DNA from: Bacteroidales bacterium
GTDB lineage: Bacteria; Bacteroidota; Bacteroidia; Bacteroidales; UBA932
Assembly (NCBI GenBank): GCA_017480345.1
Contig: JAFVAU010000006.1
Coordinates: 1 to 64,000 of the forward strand
DNA length: 64,000 nt
Direction: 5' to 3'
Every line of letters starts with the position of its first letter. The stretch's first letter is position 1. Positions 11,923 through 55,251 of this stretch are shown in pieces. Position numbers and translations under genes: made by a program. The notes under the pieces are model-generated. The model saw only the letters and a program-made list of their open reading frames with translations. It was not told where the DNA came from and ran no database searches.

Positions 11923-12540
11923 ATGACAAAAGACATGCATACCATCATCAATGTGGGCCGAAGCTTCGGCAGCGGCGGCGGCTTCGTGGCCAAGGCCATC
12001 GGAGGGAAACTGGGCATCCCTGTTTTTGACAACGAGCTCATCTCCAAGACGGCCGAGGAAAGCGGCTACTCGGGGAGTCTCTTTGCCCATGGGGAGGAAA
12101 AGAGCCTGTTTTCCGTTTCCAGTTTCTTCGCCTCCGGCCGCCTGAGCTACCTGGACAGCGGTTATGTGAACGACAACGTGCTCTTCAACATCCAGAGCGA
12201 GGTCATCCGCCAGATTGCCGACAAGGGGGACGCCGTCATTATCGGCCGATGTGCGGATTACATCCTTAGGGACCGTCCCTGCCTGAATGTCTTTGTGGGC
12301 GGGCCGGAGGAATACCGCATCCGTCGGCTCATGGAAAACGAGCACCTGAGCGCCGCCGAAGCCGAAAAGCTGATGCGCCGGAAAGACCGCACCCGCGAAA
12401 CCTATTATAATTATTACACCTTCGGAGCCTGGGGACAGGCCTCCAACTACCACCTCTGCGTGGACAGTTCCATTCTGGGAATCGAGGGAACAGCCGACTA
12501 CATCATCGACTTTGGCAGGAGGGCCGGTCTGGTAAAATAG
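11923..12540 (+). CDS. Cytidylate kinase-like family protein
   Basis: A 205-residue P-loop protein of the cytidylate-kinase-like family (Cytidylate_kin2). The start IINVGRSFGSGGGFVAKAIG is a modified Walker A with the serine/glycine-rich loop seen in this family, followed by VFDNELI and IIGRCADYIL. It is distinct from essential Cmk; members are proposed to phosphorylate nucleotides, but the substrate is unproven. An alternative ATG lies four codons downstream. The next gene begins on the last base of its TAG. Confidence 0.8.
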   Translation: MTKDMHTIINVGRSFGSGGGFVAKAIGGKLGIPVFDNELISKTAEESGYSGSLFAHGEEKSLFSVSSFFASGRLSYLDSGYVNDNVLFNIQSEVIRQIADKGDAVIIGRCADYILRDRPCLNVFVGGPEEYRIRRLMENEHLSAAEAEKLMRRKDRTRETYYNYYTFGAWGQASNYHLCVDSSILGIEGTADYIIDFGRRAGLVK

Positions 12541-13829
12541 TGACGCTCCGGAAAATCATATACTGGTCCCTTCCCCTGGTGGTTCTGCTGGGGGCGGGCT
12601 TCGGCCTGCGGCTTCGCGGCCAGGAGGAACCGGCTCCCCGGCAGGAGGAAGAGCCGGCCATTCCCGTCAATTGGGTGGAAGACCTCAATTCGGCCATCAC
12701 CAACGACCTCTCCCGTCTTCCCGCCATGGACCAGGTGGTGGACAGTTTCATGAACCATTGGTCGCTCAAGGGGGCCACCCTGGTGGTCATGCGCAACGAC
12801 TCCCTCCTCTATGCCCGCGGCTATGGAAAGGCCGATCCGGACACCCCCATGACCCCCGGCACCCGCATGCGGCTGGCCTCCGTGTCCAAGCTCCTCACAG
12901 CTATCGGCATCATGCGGCTGCAGGAAGAAGGGAAAGTGTTTCTGGATTCCCCGGTTTTCGGGCCCTACGGCGTTCTGAACGAATACGACCGCTACATCCG
13001 GGACGACAATTACTACCTCATTACGGTGGAGCACCTGCTGCGGCATCAGGCCGGGTTCACCTCCCGCGGCGGAGACGTGATGTTCTCCACGGCCAAATTC
13101 ATGCAGCGGCATGGCATCAAGGAGCCACCCACCACGGATTATCTGGTACAGAAGGAGTTGGGGAAGCCGCTCTACTATGAGCCGGGCACCTATCAGGAAT
13201 ACTCCAACTTTGGTTATCTTCTGGCCTCCCTGGTCATTGAGAAAGTTTCCGGCATGCCTTACGAGGAGTTCATGCAGCGCGAAGTCTTTGAGCCGGCCCT
13301 CTGCCACGGCTTCCGCCTGGGAGGAGACTACCTCAAGGACCGTCAGCCGGGAGAGACGCGCTACTTCACGCAGCCGGACGACAAGCCCGTAGCCTCTTTC
13401 GACGGCCAGTACGCCTCCGTTTCCCGTTGCTACGGCGGCAACTACATCTCCGGCCTGTACGGGGCCGGCGGCTGGGTGGGATCGGCCGTGGAACTGGCCC
13501 GGCTGGTGGCCTGCATCGACGGCGGCGGCCCGGTCCCGGACCTGCTGGACCCCTTCAGCGTGAACCAGATGACGGTGTGGTTCGACGACGACACCTACGG
13601 CCTGGGCTGGCTGGACTGCCGCCCTGAAGGCGAATGGACGCGCACCGGCTCCTTTGCCGGAACATCGGCCCTTATCAAGAAATACGCCGACGGCGAATGC
13701 TGGATTTTCATCACCAACACCTCCACCTGGCGGGGCTCCCGCTTCACCCGCAACACCGCCGACCTCTGCAAGAACCTCCGCGGCCGCTTTGACTCCCAGC
13801 TCCCCGTCCGGGATTTGTTCCGGGAGTAA
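12540..13829 (+). CDS. Serine hydrolase, class C beta-lactamase/penicillin-binding-protein fold
   Basis: A 429-residue exported protein with an N-terminal hydrophobic signal/anchor. It has the SxxK nucleophile motif in RLASVSKLL, the YxN motif as YSN in QEYSNFGYL and a late RTGSFAGTS in place of HTG/KTG. This fold includes esterases, D-amino acid peptidases and true beta-lactamases; nothing here selects between them. The GTG start at 12540 shares its G with the preceding TAG. Copy A of the palindromic repeat starts on the very next base after its TAA. Confidence 0.85.
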   Translation: MTLRKIIYWSLPLVVLLGAGFGLRLRGQEEPAPRQEEEPAIPVNWVEDLNSAITNDLSRLPAMDQVVDSFMNHWSLKGATLVVMRNDSLLYARGYGKADPDTPMTPGTRMRLASVSKLLTAIGIMRLQEEGKVFLDSPVFGPYGVLNEYDRYIRDDNYYLITVEHLLRHQAGFTSRGGDVMFSTAKFMQRHGIKEPPTTDYLVQKELGKPLYYEPGTYQEYSNFGYLLASLVIEKVSGMPYEEFMQREVFEPALCHGFRLGGDYLKDRQPGETRYFTQPDDKPVASFDGQYASVSRCYGGNYISGLYGAGGWVGSAVELARLVACIDGGGPVPDLLDPFSVNQMTVWFDDDTYGLGWLDCRPEGEWTRTGSFAGTSALIKKYADGECWIFITNTSTWRGSRFTRNTADLCKNLRGRFDSQLPVRDLFRE

Positions 13830-13948
13830 TTTTTGGTGACAGCCAACTCCCTGACTATCATAGACTTGTAATACATTTCTCGTTCAAAATTTGAACGAGA
13901 AATATCCTATAACACGCTGTGAGACAGCAAGTTAGTTGTCACCAAAAA
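13830..13948 (+). repeat. Nested palindromic repeat, copy A (119 bp)
   Basis: The outer arms TTTTTGGTGACA (13830-13841) and TGTCACCAAAAA (13937-13948) are perfect complements. The inner arms TTTCTCGTTCAAA (13876-13888) and TTTGAACGAGAAA (13890-13902) are also perfect. Both pairs are centred on base 13889. The sequence between outer and inner arms is diverged but pairs partly. The first arm is type alpha (contains ACTTGTAATACA), the second type beta (contains GTGTTATAGG when read inward). It lies between convergent genes, starting directly after a stop codon. Confidence 0.95.
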
Positions 13949-13954
13949 CAGGCT

Positions 13955-15064
13955 TTACTCCACCCCGAAGCGGTAGATGGTGGTGGAGCGGTAAGTTTGG
14001 GAAGGCAATAGGAGAACGGAAGGGAAGTCCGGATGATTCACGGCATCGGGCCAAGCCTGGGCTTCCAGGGTAAAAGCGCTGCGGAAGGGAAGCGGCTTTC
14101 CGTTTTTGCCCTTTTCCGTTCCGTCAAAGAAATTGCCGCTGTAGAACTGTAGCCCTTTCTGGTCCGTGATAACCTCCACCGTCCGGCCCGTAACAGGATC
14201 CTTAATCTCACAAACACTCCTCAGACCTTCGCCGTCTAAGCACCAATTGTGGTCATAGCCATGGCCATAACGTAGCTGCTGCTCATCTTCCCGGATGGAA
14301 TAGCCGATGCGGCGAGGTGCCCGGAAATCAAAGGGAGTCCCCTCAACCGGCGCAATTTCTCCGGTAGGAAGGTTCATGGAATCGATGGGCGTATAGGCCG
14401 ACGCATGGATGCAGAGGATATACTCCTCCACAAAACCCTCTCCTTCCCCTTGCAGGCAAAAGAAGGGGTGGAAGGTCATGTTGAGCGGGGTGCGTTTATT
14501 GCTTGTCCCGCTGATTTCGACCTTGAAATCGGCCCGGGAGAGCGAATAGCAAACCCGCAGGTTCCGGTTGCCGGGGAAACCTCCTTCCCCATTGGGGCAG
14601 AAAAGGGAAAGCACAAGGGAGGTATCCGTGGCCGATTCTACCGTCCACGCATGCATGTCCAGCCCCTTGAACCCTCCGTGCAGGGTATTGAGCCCATTGT
14701 CGTTGGCATCGGTGTGCCAGGTCTCACCCTCCACCTGAAAAGCGGCGTGGCTGATGCGGTTGGCCACCGGCCCCACAATGGCGCCCAAAAAGCGCTGGCC
14801 GCCGGGATGCAGGTAGGACTCCAGATTGTCGTGCCCCACCATGATGTCCGTATACTTCCCATTCCGGTCCGGGGTATAGATGGAAACCACCCGGGCGCCG
14901 AAATTGGTAATCTGAACGGCCATATTCTTATTCTTCAGGGTGTACAGATCAATGGGAACGCCCTCTGCCTCTCCCTGGAAGGCTTCACGGGGGATAAGCT
15001 GGTAAGTGGGCGCGTTACAGGCAAGTGCCAGTGCGCATGCGCAAAGTGCAAAAAACTTTTTCAT
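13955..15064 (-). CDS. galM: Aldose 1-epimerase (galactose mutarotase) lipoprotein
   Basis: A 369-residue protein of the GalM family, which interconverts alpha and beta anomers of sugars. A lipobox LAC at about residues 14-16 indicates a periplasmic or outer-membrane lipoprotein, common for Bacteroidetes mutarotases. Family motifs visible are FGARVVSIYTPDR, VGPVANRIS, the histidine in LNTLHGGFKGLDM and a late GLQFYSGNF segment with its glutamate downstream. Length is typical. It follows ettA by 8 bp on the same strand, and copy A of the repeat lies just beyond its stop. Confidence 0.92.
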   Translation of the reverse strand: MKKFFALCACALALACNAPTYQLIPREAFQGEAEGVPIDLYTLKNKNMAVQITNFGARVVSIYTPDRNGKYTDIMVGHDNLESYLHPGGQRFLGAIVGPVANRISHAAFQVEGETWHTDANDNGLNTLHGGFKGLDMHAWTVESATDTSLVLSLFCPNGEGGFPGNRNLRVCYSLSRADFKVEISGTSNKRTPLNMTFHPFFCLQGEGEGFVEEYILCIHASAYTPIDSMNLPTGEIAPVEGTPFDFRAPRRIGYSIREDEQQLRYGHGYDHNWCLDGEGLRSVCEIKDPVTGRTVEVITDQKGLQFYSGNFFDGTEKGKNGKPLPFRSAFTLEAQAWPDAVNHPDFPSVLLLPSQTYRSTTIYRFGVE

Positions 15065-15072
15065 AGAGGTTC

Positions 15073-16749
15073 TTACTCCATCAACTTCTTGTATTTGAAG
15101 CGTTTGGGCTCCGTGTCTCCCAGGCGCATCTTGCGGTTGGCTTCGTATTCCTGGTAGTTTCCTTCAAAGAACACCACCTTGCCCTCGCCTTCGTAGGCCA
15201 GGATGTGGGTGGCAATGCGGTCCAGGAACCAGCGGTCGTGGCTCACCACAACGGCACAGCCGGCAAAGCCGTCCAGACCCTCTTCCAGGGCGCGGATGGT
15301 GTTCACGTCCACGTCGTTGGTGGGTTCGTCCAGCAGGAGCACGTTACCCTCGTCTTTCAGCGTGAGGGCCAGGTGCAGGCGGTTGCGCTCACCGCCGGAG
15401 AGGACGCCGCAGAGCTTTTCCTGATCGGCCCCGGAGAAATTGAAGCGGGACACCCAGGCGCGGGCGTTCACGTCCCGGCCGCCCATCCGCACCCACTCGG
15501 AATTGCCGGCGATGGTCTCGTACACCGTCTTGTCCGGGTCTATGGAGCGGTGCTGCTGGTCCACATAGGATATCTTGACGGTCTCTCCAATCTCAATGCT
15601 GCCGCTGTCCGGCTGCTCAATGCCCATGATGAGGCGGAAAAGGGTGGTTTTACCCGCTCCATTGGGGCCGATGACACCCACAATCCCTGCCGGCGGCAGC
15701 TCGAAGCTCAGGTGCTCGAACAGAAGCTTGTCCCCATAGGCCTTGGAAACGTCGTTGAAACGGATGACCTTGTTGCCCAAATGCGGGCCGTTGGGAATAT
15801 AGATTTCCAGGTTGGCTTCCTTCTGTTTGGTATCGGCCGATGCCAGCTTCTCGTAAGCGCCCAGACGGGCCTTCTGCTTGGCCTGGCGGGCCTTGGGAGC
15901 CATCCGGACCCACTCCAACTCCCGCTCCAGCGTTTTGCGGCGCTTGGATTCCGCCTTCTCTTCCTGCGCCAGGCGCTTGGTCTTCTGGTCCAGCCAGGAG
16001 GAGTAGTTGCCCTTCCAGGGAATGCCCTCGCCGCGGTCCAGTTCCAGGATCCAGCCGGCCACGTTGTCCAGGAAGTAGCGGTCATGGGTGACGGCAATCA
16101 CCGTACCCTTGTACTGCTGCAGATGGGCTTCCAGCCACTGGATGGATTCGGTGTCCAGGTGGTTGGTGGGTTCGTCCAGGAGCAGCACGTCCGGCTCCTG
16201 CAGCAGCAGGCGGCACAGAGCCACCCGGCGGCGCTCACCCCCGGAGAGCTCCTTGATTTTCTGCTCCGAAGGCGGGCACTGCAGGGCATCCATGGCCCTT
16301 TCCAACTTGGAGTCTATCTCCCAGCCATTCACATGGTCTATCTGCTCGGTGAGCTCTCCCTGCCGCTCGATGAGACGGTTCATCTCGTCGTCGTCCATGG
16401 GCTCCATGAACTTGAGGGAAATCTCGTTGTACTCGGCCAGAATGTCCATGACGGGCTGAACCCCCTCCTGGACCACTTCCAGCACGGTTTTTTCCGGGTC
16501 CATCTGCGGCTCCTGCTCCAGATAACCCACGGTGTAGCCCGGGGCCCACACCACTTCTCCCTTGTACTGCTTCTCCACCCCCGCAATAATCTTGAGGAGG
16601 GTACTCTTACCGGACCCGTTCAGGCCGATGATGCCAATCTTAGCCCCGTAGAAGAAGCCCAGGTAGATGTCCTTAAGGATGACTTTGTTGTTGTGGGGCA
16701 ATATCTTGGACACCCCGTTCATGGAGAAGATTATTTTTTCGTCGGCCAT
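15073..16749 (-). CDS. ettA: ABC-F translational throttle protein EttA
   Basis: A 558-residue soluble ABC-F protein with two nucleotide-binding domains and no membrane part. The first Walker A is GLNGSGKST and the second GPNGAGKTT; both LSGGE signatures and both LLLDEPTN Walker B segments are present. The arm and linker lengths and the start MADEKIIFSMNGVSK fit EttA, which binds the ribosomal E site and gates entry into elongation according to energy state. A -7 box TATCTTTG lies 19 bp upstream (plus 16769-16776). Confidence 0.93.
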   Translation of the reverse strand: MADEKIIFSMNGVSKILPHNNKVILKDIYLGFFYGAKIGIIGLNGSGKSTLLKIIAGVEKQYKGEVVWAPGYTVGYLEQEPQMDPEKTVLEVVQEGVQPVMDILAEYNEISLKFMEPMDDDEMNRLIERQGELTEQIDHVNGWEIDSKLERAMDALQCPPSEQKIKELSGGERRRVALCRLLLQEPDVLLLDEPTNHLDTESIQWLEAHLQQYKGTVIAVTHDRYFLDNVAGWILELDRGEGIPWKGNYSSWLDQKTKRLAQEEKAESKRRKTLERELEWVRMAPKARQAKQKARLGAYEKLASADTKQKEANLEIYIPNGPHLGNKVIRFNDVSKAYGDKLLFEHLSFELPPAGIVGVIGPNGAGKTTLFRLIMGIEQPDSGSIEIGETVKISYVDQQHRSIDPDKTVYETIAGNSEWVRMGGRDVNARAWVSRFNFSGADQEKLCGVLSGGERNRLHLALTLKDEGNVLLLDEPTNDVDVNTIRALEEGLDGFAGCAVVVSHDRWFLDRIATHILAYEGEGKVVFFEGNYQEYEANRKMRLGDTEPKRFKYKKLME

Positions 16750-16776: not shown

Positions 16777-16803
16777 ACACTTTTCTTTGGAATAATAGGT
16801 AAA

Positions 16804-16922
16804 AATTTGGTGACAACTAAGTTACTGTGTCACAGCGTGTTATAGGATATTTCTCGTTCGAATTTTGAACGAGAAATGTATTACAAGTCAATGATAGTCA
16901 GAGAGTTAGTTGTCACCACTAA
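16804..16922 (-). repeat. Nested palindromic repeat, copy B (119-bp footprint)
   Basis: GGTGACA at 16809-16815 pairs with TGTCACC at 16911-16917, and TTTCTCGTTC at 16850-16859 with GAACGAGAAA at 16867-16876; both pairs are centred on 16863. The 109-bp core length equals that of all other copies. The arms are in the reverse order of copy A (beta first), so A and B form a large inverted pair around galM-ettA. The msrA stop codon lies inside the footprint at 16919-16921. Confidence 0.93.
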
Positions 16923-17830
16923 AGCACCTCTGCAAGGAGTTCCAGCCAGGCGGCGTCCACGGAGTCAAAGGTGGCGTACTCGTCGGAATCGATGTCCAGG
17001 ACGGCGACAACCTCGCCGCCGGGGCCGATGACCGGCACCACAATCTCCGACTTGGACAGGCTGCTGCAGGCAATGTGGCCGGGGAACTCCTCCACATCCG
17101 GCACCACCAGCGTCCGGCGCTCCTTCCAGGCCGATCCGCAGACGCCCTTGCCGAAGCCTATCCGCTGACAGGCGGCAGGGCCCTGGAAAGGCCCCAGCAC
17201 CAGCTGATCCCCCGCCACCCGGTAAAAGCCCGTCCAGAAGAAACGCATCCGCTCCGCCAGGAGGGCGCTCATGTTGGCCATGCGGGCAATCAGATCCGTC
17301 TCGTCTCCCAGGAAAAGCTTCACGTCCTGATACAGGCGCAGATAGCGGAAGGTCTTGAGGGAAAGATGGCAATAGCCTTCAGGGTTCTTGTCCAAATAGT
17401 TTTGGTGATACTCCTCGGCCGGATAAAAGTTTTTGAGCGGCTCCAGCTGCGTCACCAGAGGGACGCCCAACTTGTCAGAGACCTCCCGGAAAACTTCCTC
17501 TATGATGGGTCTGTCCTCCCCGGAGGTATAAAAAACGCCGCTGCGGTAGCGTGTGCCCTCGTCATGGCCCTGCCGGTTGAGCGTGAGCGGGTCCGTCACC
17601 GTGAAAAACAGCCGCGTGAGGAGCCTGAGACTCACCCGCTCCGGATTGTAACGCACCCGTACCGTCTCCGCAAAGCCGGTGGTGTCCGTATAAACTTCCT
17701 TATAAGTAGGGTCCTGCGTATTTCCGTTGGCATAGCCGGGCATGGCCTGGGACACGCCGTCCACACCCTTGAAGAAATGCTCCACGCCCCAGAAGCATCC
17801 TCCGGCAAAGTAAATCTCTTTCATGGTCAC
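16919..17830 (-). CDS. msrA: MsrA fused to free-methionine-(R)-sulfoxide reductase (fRMsr)
   Basis: A 303-residue two-enzyme protein. Residues 1 to about 165 are peptide methionine-(S)-sulfoxide reductase with the active-site GCFWG (11-15) and the YHQNYL motif. Residues of about 190-303 are a GAF-type fRMsr domain (GPFQGPAACQRIGFGKGVCG ... FPGHIACSS), with cysteines at 221, 231 and 255; the 10- and 24-residue spacings equal those of the catalytic cysteines of E. coli fRMsr (84, 94, 118). One chain could thus repair S-sulfoxides in proteins and R-sulfoxide of free methionine. The start is GTG at 17830 or, more likely, ATG at 17824, because a -7 box overlaps the GTG. Confidence 0.88.
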   Translation of the reverse strand: MTMKEIYFAGGCFWGVEHFFKGVDGVSQAMPGYANGNTQDPTYKEVYTDTTGFAETVRVRYNPERVSLRLLTRLFFTVTDPLTLNRQGHDEGTRYRSGVFYTSGEDRPIIEEVFREVSDKLGVPLVTQLEPLKNFYPAEEYHQNYLDKNPEGYCHLSLKTFRYLRLYQDVKLFLGDETDLIARMANMSALLAERMRFFWTGFYRVAGDQLVLGPFQGPAACQRIGFGKGVCGSAWKERRTLVVPDVEEFPGHIACSSLSKSEIVVPVIGPGGEVVAVLDIDSDEYATFDSVDAAWLELLAEVL

Positions 17831-43147: not shown

Positions 43148-44173
43148 ATGAAAATCCAGATAGATGCATCCGGGAAGGATCCCATTTACAAACAGCTGGT
43201 CACCCAGGTGGAGAAAGCGCTGCATGCCGGCAAATTGAAAGCCGGAGAGCAGATTCCTTCCATGAACGAACTGGCCGCCGCGCTGGACATTTCCAAAGAG
43301 ACGGTCAAGAAGTCCTACGGCATCCTGGTGGACAAAGGAGTCATAGTGCCCAAGCAGGGAAAGGGTTTCTATGCGGCCGATGTGAATACGGACGTGAAGC
43401 CGCAGATTCTGGTCCTCTTTGACAAATTTTCCGTCTATAAGCAGATTCTGTTCAACGCTTTCGCGGAGAAACTGGAGGGCCAGGCAGAAATCACCATCCT
43501 GAACCACAACCAGAGCATCGACCTGCTGGAACATTACCTGGATGACAACCTGGACCGTTTTGACTACTATATCCTGGCACCGCACTTCCCGTTGGACGCC
43601 CCCACCCAAGCCAAGGTGGTAAAGCAGCTTGCCCGCATCCCCTTCCGCAAGCTCATCATGCTGGACCGCCTGCAACCCCACTTCCCGGGCCAGTATGGTG
43701 CCGTATACCAGGACTTTGAAAACGACATCTACCAAGGCCTCACGGAAGGGCTGGGGGCCAAGCGACGTACCCGGATGATGCGGGTGATCACCCTTCCCAT
43801 GTCCCTGTATGGCAGCCATATCAAAAAAGGCGTGAAGCGTTTCACCACGGAGTACGACATTCCGGTGGAATTCCTGAACGCCGTTCCGGAGGACATCCGC
43901 CCCGGAGACACCTTCCTGGTGCTCAACTCCCAGCTGGACGCCGGCCTGGTGGCCCTGGCCCGCCAAATCCAGCAGGCCGGGCTCCGCATCGGCGAAGACG
44001 TGTTCATTGTCTCCTACAACGAATCCGACATGAACGAGTTGGTGCTGGGAGGTCTCACCACCGTAAGTACGGACTTCCGCGAGATGGGCCGATTGGCCGC
44101 CGAAATGGTCCTCTCCCACCATCTTACCAAGGAACACTGCCCCTTCCACATGAACCGCCGCCGCACCTTCTGA
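43148..44173 (+). CDS. GntR-family regulator with LacI-like sugar-sensing domain
   Basis: A 341-residue regulator. Residues 1-75 are a GntR winged helix (DPIYKQLVTQVEKALHAGKL, IPSMNELAAALDISKETVKK); residues of about 85-335 are a periplasmic-binding-protein type 1 fold as in LacI regulators, with a VFIVSYNESDMNELVLGGLT segment near the end. Such proteins in Bacteroidetes repress sugar operons until the sugar binds. It lies after GH20 with its own promoter. The direct repeat ACCACA-GTAC-ACCACA near 22980 and 46430 is a candidate target, unproven. Repeat copy C begins on the base after its TGA. Confidence 0.87.
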   Translation: MKIQIDASGKDPIYKQLVTQVEKALHAGKLKAGEQIPSMNELAAALDISKETVKKSYGILVDKGVIVPKQGKGFYAADVNTDVKPQILVLFDKFSVYKQILFNAFAEKLEGQAEITILNHNQSIDLLEHYLDDNLDRFDYYILAPHFPLDAPTQAKVVKQLARIPFRKLIMLDRLQPHFPGQYGAVYQDFENDIYQGLTEGLGAKRRTRMMRVITLPMSLYGSHIKKGVKRFTTEYDIPVEFLNAVPEDIRPGDTFLVLNSQLDAGLVALARQIQQAGLRIGEDVFIVSYNESDMNELVLGGLTTVSTDFREMGRLAAEMVLSHHLTKEHCPFHMNRRRTF

Positions 44174-44292
44174 TTTTTGGTGACAACCAATTCACTGATT
44201 CACAGTACGTTATAACACATTTCTCGTTCAAAAAACGAACGAGAAATGTGCTACAAGTGGCTAATAGACAGCACATTAGCTGTCACCAAAAA
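44174..44292 (-). repeat. Nested palindromic repeat, copy C (119 bp)
   Basis: The outer arms TTTTTGGTGACA (44174-44185) and TGTCACCAAAAA (44281-44292) and the inner arms TTTCTCGTTC (44220-44229) and GAACGAGAAA (44237-44246) are all centred on 44233. Arm order is beta-alpha, like copy B. It begins directly after the GntR stop and lies between convergent genes. Its right end provides the T-run of the next terminator, read leftward. Confidence 0.95.
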
Positions 44293-53232: not shown

Positions 53233-53385
53233 ATGAAAAGAACATTTCAACCTTCCCGTCGCAAGCGTGTGAATAAGCACGGCTTCCGTGCCCGCATGGC
53301 TTCCGCCAACGGCCGCCGCGTCCTGAACGCCCGCCGTCGTCACGCCCGCAAAAAGCTCTCCGTATCTGACGAAGACCGCTGGTAG
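53233..53385 (+). CDS. rpmH: 50S ribosomal protein L34
   Basis: A 50-residue, very basic protein beginning [20 protein letters not shown], the universal L34 signature, and ending in an acidic DEDRW tail. It is a structural protein of the large subunit. In many bacteria rpmH is next to rnpA near the origin; here it follows rsmG with its own promoter and terminator and no rnpA is adjacent. Confidence 0.97.
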
Positions 53386-53411: not shown

Positions 53412-53447
53412 CCGCAGACCTTTCCCGGCCTGCGGTTTTTGTTTGTT
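53412..53447 (+). terminator. Rho-independent terminator of rpmH
   Basis: CCGCAG (53412-53417) pairs with CTGCGG (53430-53435), followed by a T-rich run to 53447. The run is directly followed by repeat copy D. Confidence 0.85.
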
Positions 53448-53564
53448 GGAGGTGACAAGCAAGTACTTGATTCTCATAGACTTGCATACTATTTCTCGTT
53501 CGATTTTTGAACGAGAAATGTATAGGAAGTTAGTGATAATCAATGAGTTGGCTGTCACCAATAT
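53446..53564 (+). repeat. Nested palindromic repeat, copy D (119-bp footprint), left boundary of the transposase unit
   Basis: GGTGACA (53451-53457) pairs with TGTCACC (53553-53559), and TTTCTCGTTC (53492-53501) with GAACGAGAAA (53509-53518); the common centre is 53505. Core length is 109 bp as in the other copies. The arm order resembles copy A and is opposite to copy E, so D and E face each other across the transposase unit. Confidence 0.93.
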
Positions 53565-53578
53565 TACGCGCAAAGGCG

Positions 53579-53586
53579 TATCTTTG
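53579..53586 (+). promoter_or_regulatory. -7 box directly before the 53591 gene
   Basis: TATCTTTG matches TAnnTTTG and ends 4 bp before the ATG at 53591. Repeat copy D occupies the -33 region and upstream. Confidence 0.45.
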
Positions 53587-53590
53587 CAGT

Positions 53591-54133
53591 ATGACGGCAC
53601 TGTTGGCACTATATTACCTGACAGGCGCGGCGCTGGAAAGCCCGCAGGGGCTTTACGGAGACCGCCTGGAAGAGATGGAGACGGAGGAACTGCTTTCCTT
53701 CGTGAGGCGGGCGTCGCAGGAGATGGAACGGCGGGGCGTGAGACCACCGCCGCCGGCCCAGAAGGTAAGGGTGACGCGGGAGCTCAGGATTTTTATCGGC
53801 CCAAGTGAGCTCAAAGTAAGGCCGATGGCAAAATCCGTCCTGCTCCTCTTCCTGAGGCACCCGGAGGGAATCCCGCTCAAGCAGATGACCTCCTTCGAGG
53901 GAGAGCTCCGAAGCTTTTACCGGCGGGTGAGCCGAAGTTCAGACCCGTCGGCCATCGATGAAAGGGTGGCGCGGATGCTGGAGAGCTTCAACAACGAGCT
54001 CAACGTGAACATCGCCAGGGTGAACCGGGCGGTGGCTCTCCTTACGGACAGCATCCCGGACTATCAGATTGGTGGGATGGCCGGGGCCCCCAAGCGCATT
54101 TTGCTGGACCGGAGCTGGGTGGTTTGGGAGTGA
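53591..54133 (+). CDS. Unrecognised protein with a possible winged-helix domain, in the transposase unit
   Basis: A 180-residue protein. Residues of about 1-50 are a helical, acidic segment; residues 58-175 follow the order of an OmpR-type winged helix: strands (ELRIFIGPSELKVR), helix (MAKSVLLLFLRHPEG), IPLKQM, an Arg/Ser-rich helix region, a recognition-like helix (LNVNIARVNRAVALL) and a closing hairpin (YQIGG...KRILLDRSW). I know no named family. It lies between repeat D and the RAYT-like gene on the same strand, so a role in controlling or assisting the transposase, or a regulator carried with it, is possible. The ATG at 53591 is preferred because of the -7 box; an ATG at 53543 lies inside the repeat. 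Confidence 0.6.
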   Translation: MTALLALYYLTGAALESPQGLYGDRLEEMETEELLSFVRRASQEMERRGVRPPPPAQKVRVTRELRIFIGPSELKVRPMAKSVLLLFLRHPEGIPLKQMTSFEGELRSFYRRVSRSSDPSAIDERVARMLESFNNELNVNIARVNRAVALLTDSIPDYQIGGMAGAPKRILLDRSWVVWE

Positions 54134-54135
54134 AA

Positions 54136-54189
54136 AATCGTAAGAAACACACAAAAAGCATGTAAAACAACACAACTTTTTTTACGATT
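54136..54189. repeat. Inverted repeat upstream of the transposase gene
   Basis: AATCGTAA (54136-54143) and TTACGATT (54182-54189) are perfect complements separated by 38 nt of A-rich sequence, ending 39 bp before the transposase ATG. It could be a terminator-like structure or a recognition hairpin. Confidence 0.5.
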
Positions 54190-54228
54190 CTTGCTTCCTT
54201 CCCATCTTGTGGATATCTTGCGTCCGTT

Positions 54229-55149
54229 ATGAAGACGCGAAAAGTATATCCCGGCGAGGTGCATCACGTTTGCCAGCAGACGGTGGGCGGCGTGCTCGTT
54301 TTCTACACCGTCAACGATTTTCTCGTATTCTTCTCCATCGTGTGCACGGCGGCAGGCCGATTCGGCATCCGCCTCCTGGCCCTCTGCCCCATGGTGGACC
54401 ATACGCATCTGGTGGTGGTGGCCCCCGGGGAGACGGCGCTCGCCCGCTTTGTGCAGGAGTATACCCATCTCTTTTCCTATGAGTGGAACAAGTCTCGGGG
54501 CCGAAAGGGGCCGCTCTTCAAACACCGCTACATGAGTTCCGTCAAACTGGGCAACAAACAGGCCCGGACCACCATCAATTACTGCAACAACAATCCCGTA
54601 GAGCGGAAACTGGTGCAGGAGGCCCAGGACTACCGCTGGAATTTCCTGCGCTATGCCCGACAGACGCATCCGTATTCCAGCGTCCGGAAACCCTCCGAAC
54701 TGTCGTCCAAGCTGCGGGACATCCTTCGGGAAGCCGGACGCATCCGGGAGGGAGGCGGGCATCTGAAGTACTGTCAGCTGGAACGATGGTGCAAAGGTCT
54801 CCGCGAAGGGCAGATGCAGTATCTGGCCGATTGTCTTGTGGGCCTGTGGAACGTCATCGATTATGGAGAAGCCATCAGCTATTACGGGAACTACGAGGCC
54901 ATGCTGCGCTCCTTCCGGGACAACACCGGCAGCGACTATGACATCCGCGAAGACCGCCACAGCTATTCAGACGCCGTGTACGGGGATTGCACCCGGATTC
55001 TGCTGAAGGAGGGGCATATCGGCCATCCGCGTGAGATACCTTCCCTGCCCCTATCCCTCAGGAAGGCCCTGGCCGATGAGCTCCGACGCCGCACAACCGC
55101 CTTTCCCCGTCAGATTGCCAAATACCTCCACCTGACAGGTGACAAGTAA
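54229..55149 (+). CDS. RAYT-like Y1 (HUH) transposase
   Basis: A 306-residue Y1_Tnp protein of the IS200-like/REP-associated (RAYT) type. The HUH motif is H58-x-H60 in DHTHLVV; the candidate nucleophile is Y118 in INYCNNNPVERKL, matching the YIxxNPV motif of the family. RAYTs nick and join single-stranded DNA at hairpin repeats. Residues of about 205-306 are an extra C-terminal part ending in an HTH-like TTAFPRQIAKYLHL. Repeats D and E bound the unit, and the last codons GGT GAC AAG TAA are the outer end of repeat E. No usual IS ends were seen, as expected for a RAYT. Confidence 0.85.
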   Translation: MKTRKVYPGEVHHVCQQTVGGVLVFYTVNDFLVFFSIVCTAAGRFGIRLLALCPMVDHTHLVVVAPGETALARFVQEYTHLFSYEWNKSRGRKGPLFKHRYMSSVKLGNKQARTTINYCNNNPVERKLVQEAQDYRWNFLRYARQTHPYSSVRKPSELSSKLRDILREAGRIREGGGHLKYCQLERWCKGLREGQMQYLADCLVGLWNVIDYGEAISYYGNYEAMLRSFRDNTGSDYDIREDRHSYSDAVYGDCTRILLKEGHIGHPREIPSLPLSLRKALADELRRRTTAFPRQIAKYLHLTGDK

Positions 55150-55251
55150 CTCGTTGATACTCTGCCATATACAATACATTTCTCGTTCGTTTTTTGAACG
55201 AGAAATGTATTATAAGTCAATGACAGCCAATTACTTAGCTGTCACCAAAAT
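55133..55251 (-). repeat. Nested palindromic repeat, copy E (119-bp footprint), overlapping the transposase stop
   Basis: GGTGACA (55138-55144) pairs with TGTCACC (55240-55246), and TTTCTCGTTC (55179-55188) with GAACGAGAAA (55196-55205); the common centre is 55192. The footprint begins inside the transposase gene, providing its final GDK and stop, and ends on the base before the stop codon of the leftward GPH symporter gene (55252-55254). Confidence 0.95.

Follow-up and report, generated by a model that had tools for sequence, protein, structure and literature searches.

A RAYT-like gene and its long palindromic repeats in a Bacteroidales genome, with repeat ends that differ between sister species at the same sites

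A standing question about REP-like repeats is how they spread and what keeps them matched to the RAYT. It is raised anew by a locus in a Bacteroidales MAG (G000; 2.22 Mb in 46 contigs, 91% complete), where a gene for a RAYT-like HUH/Y1 transposase (hereafter RAYT) sits between two copies of a palindromic repeat. Is the gene the partner of these repeats or a chance neighbour, and what happens to the repeats as related species diverge? The window analysed here is a stretch of 64 kb from contig C4 of this MAG.

The gene, its borders and the genomic repeat family

The RAYT gene (54229..55149, + strand; 306 aa) was confirmed as an ORF, and it does lie, as the earlier note on this DNA had it, between repeat copies D and E, which are bipartite palindromes of about 109 bp. 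Five copies of the near-palindrome, each of about 119 bp, are found in the window. Copy D (53445..53564, core 53451-53559) forms the upstream border of the RAYT unit and copy E (55132..55251, core 55138-55246) the downstream border. The three further copies that had been noticed elsewhere were located as A (13829..13948), between ORF 12540-13829 (+), which we take to be serine hydrolase-like, and ORF 13955-15064 (-); B (16803..16922), between ORFs 15073-16749 (-) and 16919-17830 (-), presumably ABC-F-like and msrA-like; and C (44173..44292), directly past the stop of ORF 43148-44173. The description of D and E as mirror-oriented, facing copies was inaccurate, because over their full length the two agree more closely when aligned directly (77%) than when one is inverted (71%); each repeat unit is itself a near-palindrome. 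By mechanical ORFs, applied within the window only, the repeats are extragenic: A, C and E begin at or just before an ORF end, and D comes after ORF 53233-53385. Copy E overlaps the last codons of RAYT and supplies its TAA stop codon.

Between D and RAYT lies an ORF of 180 aa (53591..54133, + strand; given also as 53543-54133) with no Pfam match, which is probably a passenger host gene. Its family is separate, with matches in 31 of 120 relative genomes, and outside the RAYT clade none of its listed matches stands next to a listed RAYT match.

All five window copies share invariant ends (GGTGACA...TGTCACC) and an invariant centre (ATTTCTCGTTC-n7-GAACGAGAAAT), and each half runs from the outer arm through CTAA, TGAnnnnCA and TTATA to an arm of the central hairpin. 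Folded as single-stranded DNA, the copies score 5.6 to 8.2 sd better than dinucleotide shuffles, with 0/200 shuffles as good for each. Rfam at gathering scores gave no match in the window. Two short motifs were also counted: the 8-mer GGCCGATG occurs at 60 sites over window positions 1-64000 against 4.2 expected from shuffles and is a possible genome-wide motif of the DNA-uptake-signal, Chi or KOPS type, and GGCCGAT occurs 35 times in 14 kb of repeat flanks against about 25 expected from its window density (115 in 64 kb), an enrichment near repeats that is at most slight.

Across the source genome, blastn with the repeat returned 79 matches, strands counted apart. Five redundant contig pairs (C34/C19, C32/C13, C38/C4, C41/C3 and C42/C18; identity 99.9-100% in comparisons of 1.7-3.1 kb) count repeats twice unless removed; without them the tally is 35 distinct copies, 111-119 nt long and each complete at its two ends, which bears out the expectation of many dispersed copies genome-wide. 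Stop triplets lie within 12 nt outside 34/70 ends, where even base use would give about 27 by chance; this is near chance and is not evidence. Left-right pairing beyond the shared motif is clearly above permutation only in the central stem, and the idea of a cloverleaf, with lateral mini-hairpins within a half, was dropped as there was no clear covariation in G000. Two half-types with left/right polarity are suggestive only, shuffled pairings being as good in 1/60 trials for G000, 11/60 for G120, 0/60 for G036 and 6/60 for G037.

The protein itself points to the RAYT kind. Its HUH motif comprises H58 and H60 (motif letters DHTH), and Y118 is assigned from the motif YCNNNP as the catalytic Tyr. 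Pfam Y1_Tnp is matched at 28.8 bits, above the cut-off of 23, and NCBIfam REP_Tyr_transpos at 46.3 bits, below the cut-off of 80. Ten residues (F25, M55, H58, H60, K106, Y118, N121, N122, W137 and D201) are invariant in an alignment of 69 of 70 RAYT proteins, its own included; the remaining one (L102, with one in-frame TGA) was omitted there and kept in the flank tests described below. An AF2 model (pLDDT 95, pTM 0.93) has as its top Foldseek match, over the N-terminal half, the complex of the E. coli RAYT and a REP hairpin (4er8; E 4.5e-5, TM 0.71 by target length), followed by the IS200, IS608 and ISDra2 transposases. The protein thus has an HUH motif and a single catalytic Tyr in a RAYT-like fold, as is expected of REPIN/RAYT systems. 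It differs in length from the 4er8 chain (306 against 165 aa): from about residue 160 it continues as a helical C-terminal domain of ~150 aa without an assigned relative. A Pfam search with this domain from five RAYT proteins gave no match at cut-off, nor did a PDB sequence search with RAYT at E<=1.

The shared catalytic fold, with IS200, IS608 and ISDra2 among the Foldseek matches, and a unit bounded by hairpins would also suit an ordinary insertion sequence of the IS200/IS605 type, which had transposed as a whole in the past and left solo ends behind as the dispersed repeats. An element that moves as a whole unit is expected in several near-identical copies, whereas the 91%-complete MAG holds one close RAYT copy against 35 repeats, and these repeats are complete two-armed units rather than single ends. 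In addition, dN/dS of RAYT is about 0.2, a search against phages gave no match, plasmid matches reach only 31.6% identity, and the block keeps to one neighbourhood in the 14 named loci considered below. We regard the insertion-sequence explanation as improbable.

Two further Y1 genes of G000 were observed. One, distant from RAYT (L031, G000:C8:79985-83428), has its own flanking hairpin pair in other letters (flank match E 5e-19), and the other (L032) has no such pair.

Relatives of the gene and their flanking hairpins

Matches to RAYT (E<=1e-10) occur in 45 of the 120 relative genomes, often several in each (eight in G043), and the best 70 of the 88 matches listed were examined as loci, the 18 lowest being left out. 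Left and right flanks match each other (>=30 bits) at 53/70 of these loci, compared with 75/4830 pairings of flanks from different loci; 17/70 loci have no flank pair at 30 bits. A score for a hairpin plus outer arm reached at least 18 in 63/139 flanks against 0/139 letter-shuffled flanks, and at least 15 in 92/139 against 3/139. Most other examined RAYT loci of the genus therefore have a repeat of their own. Judged by eye, the better-scoring flanking hairpins are about 105-120 bp long and consist of an outer arm, TAA, a TGAnnnTCA-like motif, a central hairpin and the mirror of these parts; the letters of arm and hairpin change from family to family (some of the other families have GTGG) and the architecture is similar. 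The earlier note had taken a transposase with unrelated flanks in relatives to speak against its reading. The letters of the flanks of distant RAYTs are indeed often unrelated, but such flanks are again paired palindromes of similar architecture and do not differ in kind.

The repeat of the window is present in 3/120 genomes (G000, G036 and G037, with 7 candidates scored in genomes with matches), and the RAYT identities there are 100, 70 and 68%. Among these 120 genomes the prediction that copies track the transposase clade holds, all three having a RAYT of at least 68% identity. It holds less well in nine further genomes reached via named loci, eight of which have matches to the repeat: there are 53, 17, 51, 24, 1, 3, 5, 16 and 0 matches at RAYT identities of 88, 87, 85, 70, 65, 67, 64, 57 and 54%, and repeat number is not strictly in step with RAYT identity (24 at 70%, 1 at 65%, 16 at 57%). 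When 14 other hairpin families were searched in the 120 genomes, with up to 3 candidates scored per genome, matches fell in 14 genomes, namely the 13 from which the families had been taken and, in one case, G037. A family from G005 has a further match in G036, at a distance of some 4 kb from a RAYT related to its own. By blastn these other families are small: deeper scoring of the 13 source genomes gave, among the matches listed and with strands counted apart, from at least 2 to at least 19 matches in 11/13; G036 has at least 33 and G005 at least 57 family matches among those listed, each of these genomes holding two families or a related one.

Over 53 loci, RAYT identity and repeat similarity show no Mantel correlation (rho -0.0015; 987/2000 permutations as high; L055, L069, L075, L084, L083 and L100, judged by eye to lack the architecture, were excluded). 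The nil result arises because repeats can no longer be recognised once RAYT identity falls under about 55-60%: hairpins are alike (>=30 bits) in 4/5 pairs at RAYT identities of at least 70%, in 6/20 at 55-70% and in 21/1353 below 55%.

A scan of GTDB contigs added 14 loci titled Bacteroidales or Bacteroidia, with a RAYT 88 to 54% identical; they are mostly MAGs, and their isolate names include reindeer, roe-deer rumen and RUG. The 180-aa ORF adjoins RAYT in 14/14, and a gene that we take to be rpmH is near it in 13/14, L124 being cut by the contig end. RAYT, with its one close copy in G000 and the same neighbours in both orientations of the locus, conforms to the REPIN/RAYT pattern of a low-copy gene kept vertically at one locus. 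A flanking hairpin was seen on at least one side in 13/14 loci (none in L130), and its letters vary: the outer arm is GGTGACA in the window, CTTGACA in L122, CTTGATC in L123, GTGATC in L125 and GCTGGYC in L132/L133, and the hairpin centres differ by species (ATTTCTCGTTC, ATTCCTCGTTC, AATCCTCGTTC, AGTCCTCGTTC and AATCCTCGGC, with ATCAAGTGTGGC in L135).

The orientation of the block formed by D, the ORF, RAYT and E also varies among the named loci. It is that of the window in 7/14 (L122-L124, L129, L132-L134) and inverted in 6/14 (L125-L128, L130, L131), while L135 is rearranged. In the inverted blocks L125-L128, where both hairpins are seen, these sit at the block ends, which is what recombination between the hairpins would give.

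It could be argued that an unrelated DDE transposase has the repeats as its MITEs, with RAYT merely lying between two of them, since the family consists of inverted-repeat units with T-rich outer flanks. Among the 35 copies of G000, however, no target-site duplication clearly exceeds shuffled pairing (a weak test, the copies being old), and a chance neighbourhood would give neither a cognate pair at 53/70 RAYT genes nor adjacent hairpins that vary by species in 13/14 named loci. The MITE explanation is largely refuted by the cognate pairing and is very improbable.

A REPIN/RAYT-like association, which the earlier note had suggested from the arrangement in the window, is strongly supported by the dispersed copies, the single close RAYT, the co-occurrence of gene and repeat and the cognate flanking pairs. 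We read the locus as a REPIN/RAYT-like system in a long, bipartite variant without GT[AG]G (probability about 0.8). In such a system RAYT, as an HUH nuclease, would recognise the outer arm and the conserved TAA at each end of the repeat, folded as single-stranded DNA, and cleave near the TAA; it may have copied repeats into intergenic sites, and would itself have been inherited vertically as a domesticated gene.

Repeat ends at orthologous sites in sister species

In three sister genomes, G120, G121 and G122, the same RAYT clade (88, 87 and 85% identical to that of G000; dS 0.36) occurs together with its own version of the repeat. Counted over fetched copies with the central motif, half-ends in G000 are GGTGA in 63/70 and CTTGA in 0/70, whereas those in G120 are CTTGA in 40/48 and GGTGA in 0/48, and those in G121 are CTTGA in 13/14 and GGTGA in 1/14. 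Ends in G122 are mixed (CTTGG 14/28, GGCGG/GGTGG 8/28), which is perhaps a switch in progress; both of these end types have one common base that is absent in G000 and G120.

Sites were mapped by the 140-150-bp flanks of 29/35 G000 copies (18 + 11), with D and E placed via L122-L124 and A and B compared via a 5-kb stretch; L007 and L112, near contig ends, were left out. The first batch gave 22 site-genome combinations with both flanks matched, 3 of them without the repeat, and the second 13 combinations, 2 of them without the repeat, with both flanks matched in 12 and the left flank only for L115 in G120. Two broken elements (L113 in G122, L115 in G121) were not counted, and the in-place comparison comprises 32 combinations, D/E included, with L003 in G122 kept although its left half is missing. 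The repeat is found in both G000 and the sister at 15 orthologous sites for G120, 5 for G121 and 12 for G122. Interiors are more alike at orthologous than at non-orthologous sites (identity 0.747 v 0.550 for G120, 0.730 v 0.564 for G121 and 0.669 v 0.544 for G122).

At the 15 sites shared with G120, the 30 ends in G000 are GGTGACA (26), AGTGACA (3) and CGTGACA (1), and the same 30 ends in G120 are CTTGACA (27) and GTTGACA (3); the outer dinucleotide differs in 30/30. At site L113 an odd central stem (ACTT) is kept in three species and the arm differs. Between species whose ends differ, then, dispersed copies that occupy shared sites have the end typical of their own species, and their interiors stay site-specific. 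The difference bears no direction as to which species changed, because RAYT identities among the four species (82-88%) are near star-like.

How far this site memory extends was measured over 31 combinations (L003 in G122 dropped), with partners permuted 2000 times within species. Memory is strong at positions 12-39, where each of four blocks gave 0/2000, and some is seen at the centre, positions 40-43 (6/2000). None was seen at end positions 0-11, most of which are near-invariant and hence uninformative; at the informative positions 7-9 the agreement was 0.634 against 0.622 permuted (sd 0.025; 694/2000), where memory like that of the interior would give about 0.75. The boundary falls near the conserved TAA.

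The difference in place would reflect either an exchange of short tracts, the outer ~12 nt, that RAYT promotes, or selection on each copy to match RAYT. For the former, RAYT would cut near the TAA on each side and swap an end module of ~12 nt among resident copies, so that a change of specificity could sweep the genome without new insertions. The lost memory at positions 7-9 is what such an exchange would leave, and fast mutation there could mimic it; we put this forward tentatively, as a doubtful proposal. For the latter, the copies would be immobile, host-functional sites (terminator, nucleoid or bend) read by RAYT or another protein, and the concerted change of the arms would follow from selection at each site after the reader changed its specificity. 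Several observations suit this: the repeat is kept at the orthologous places counted above; interiors have diverged about as silent sites have (a raw difference of 25% from G120, compared with dS of 0.26-0.36 for three genes); and among 12 G000 sites compared the outer five bases are 98% uniform, the interior being 59% shared. The CA-N5-TTR spacing in each half, which we presume to resemble the IHF consensus WATCAANNNNTTR, may on its letters be counted on the same side. Selection on the arms alone, on the other hand, should leave memory at the polymorphic positions 7-9, which ought to be free in that model, unless those mutate fast, and the absence of memory there is as conversion predicts. 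Five sites, moreover, are without the repeat in one sister species (L005, L022, L111 and L114 in G121; L024 in G122). Selection on immobile host sites is a possible explanation, to which we give appreciable weight but less than even odds.

Gain and loss look the same at sites without the repeat, and exact borders were not obtained, because the flanks are too diverged. In G120 and G121 the gene 3' end that corresponds to the site of copy A is without the repeat, and the gene neighbour there has changed. No clean empty site or new insertion was found between G000 and the sister species, which are too diverged for this at the RAYT dS given above. At six sites (L016, L010, L025, L108, L020 and L116) the two flanks are found on a single contig of a sister (G120-G122) but separated by about 1 to 11 kb, which suggests that gene turnover or rearrangement breaks at repeats.

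Relation to published systems

A GT[AG]G foot is the hallmark of canonical REPs. It is lacking here, GGTGA being found in the 63/70 G000 halves. In other respects the locus resembles REPIN/RAYT systems, with a RAYT flanked by a dispersed repeat with inverted arms; as far as the accessible text of the REPIN description goes (Bertels and Rainey, 2011; PMC3116915), both have repeats that flank the RAYT and extragenic, dispersed units of two arms, in which the ends are conserved and the spacer, which forms a hairpin, is less so. The system here differs from that text in being without the GT[AG]G foot, in its end module of ~12 nt with a species-specific outer arm and an invariant TAA, in its strongly conserved central hairpin and in the end difference in place between species.

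The nearest published kinds are TIRtrons and TnpAREP subclass 2.6. TIRtrons, or TIRYTs, consist in the available sections of their description of a RAYT-like gene between long non-GTAG repeats, which form moderate genomic families and are in some cases 'double palindromic' (Di Nocera et al., 2013; PMC3733652). The long non-GTAG flanking repeats here likewise form a genomic family. The examples named in those sections come from other phyla, and neither an architecture common to unrelated families nor an in-place switch was found in them (PMC3733652). Subclass 2.6 of a 2018 TnpAY1 survey, in the portion accessible, belongs to Bacteroidetes and has atypical flanking structures with genomic copies (PMC6006769). 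Its motifs (NH[LIV]H, YIH[QN]NP) and median length of 179 aa, so far as given in that portion, differ from the DHTH, YCNNNP and 306 aa of our RAYT (PMC6006769), which does not fall within the subclass by motif or length.

The end difference may be set beside the REP 'orthogroup' and 'orthoswitch' of Nunvar et al. (2013; PMC3686654), where, in the text available, syntenic RAYTs of related strains are flanked by different REP classes. In the model given there, a new REP class spreads while the old copies remain and decay. Here, by contrast, the end of the other species is absent among fetched copies (GGTGA 0/48 in G120, CTTGA 0/70 in G000), and it is at shared sites that the two species differ; an end difference in place does not fit the published orthoswitch model, as far as that text presents it. 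About the molecular mechanism of orthoswitches its authors, in the same text, can only speculate (PMC3686654). The earlier note knew of no description of this repeat family. In the accessible text of open PubMed Central papers (preprints not included; PMC8266576, PMC12306157 and PMC5771137 among them) none was found of the family, nor of ends that switch in place where sites are orthologous, but the general kind is in print as REPIN, TIRtron and TnpAREP subclass 2.6 (PMC3116915; PMC3733652; PMC6006769). What is new is the end difference in place at orthologous sites.

Four sister species, with the diverged interiors as a clock, make the change readable site by site, and such a reading allows 'end conversion', 'selection per site' and 'spread and decay' to be told apart. 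For work on specificity, one genus also supplies dozens of apparent pairs of RAYT and hairpin. If the exchange of ends by RAYT is true, the rewriting of ends would represent a new form of concerted evolution, namely short-tract end conversion by an HUH nuclease.
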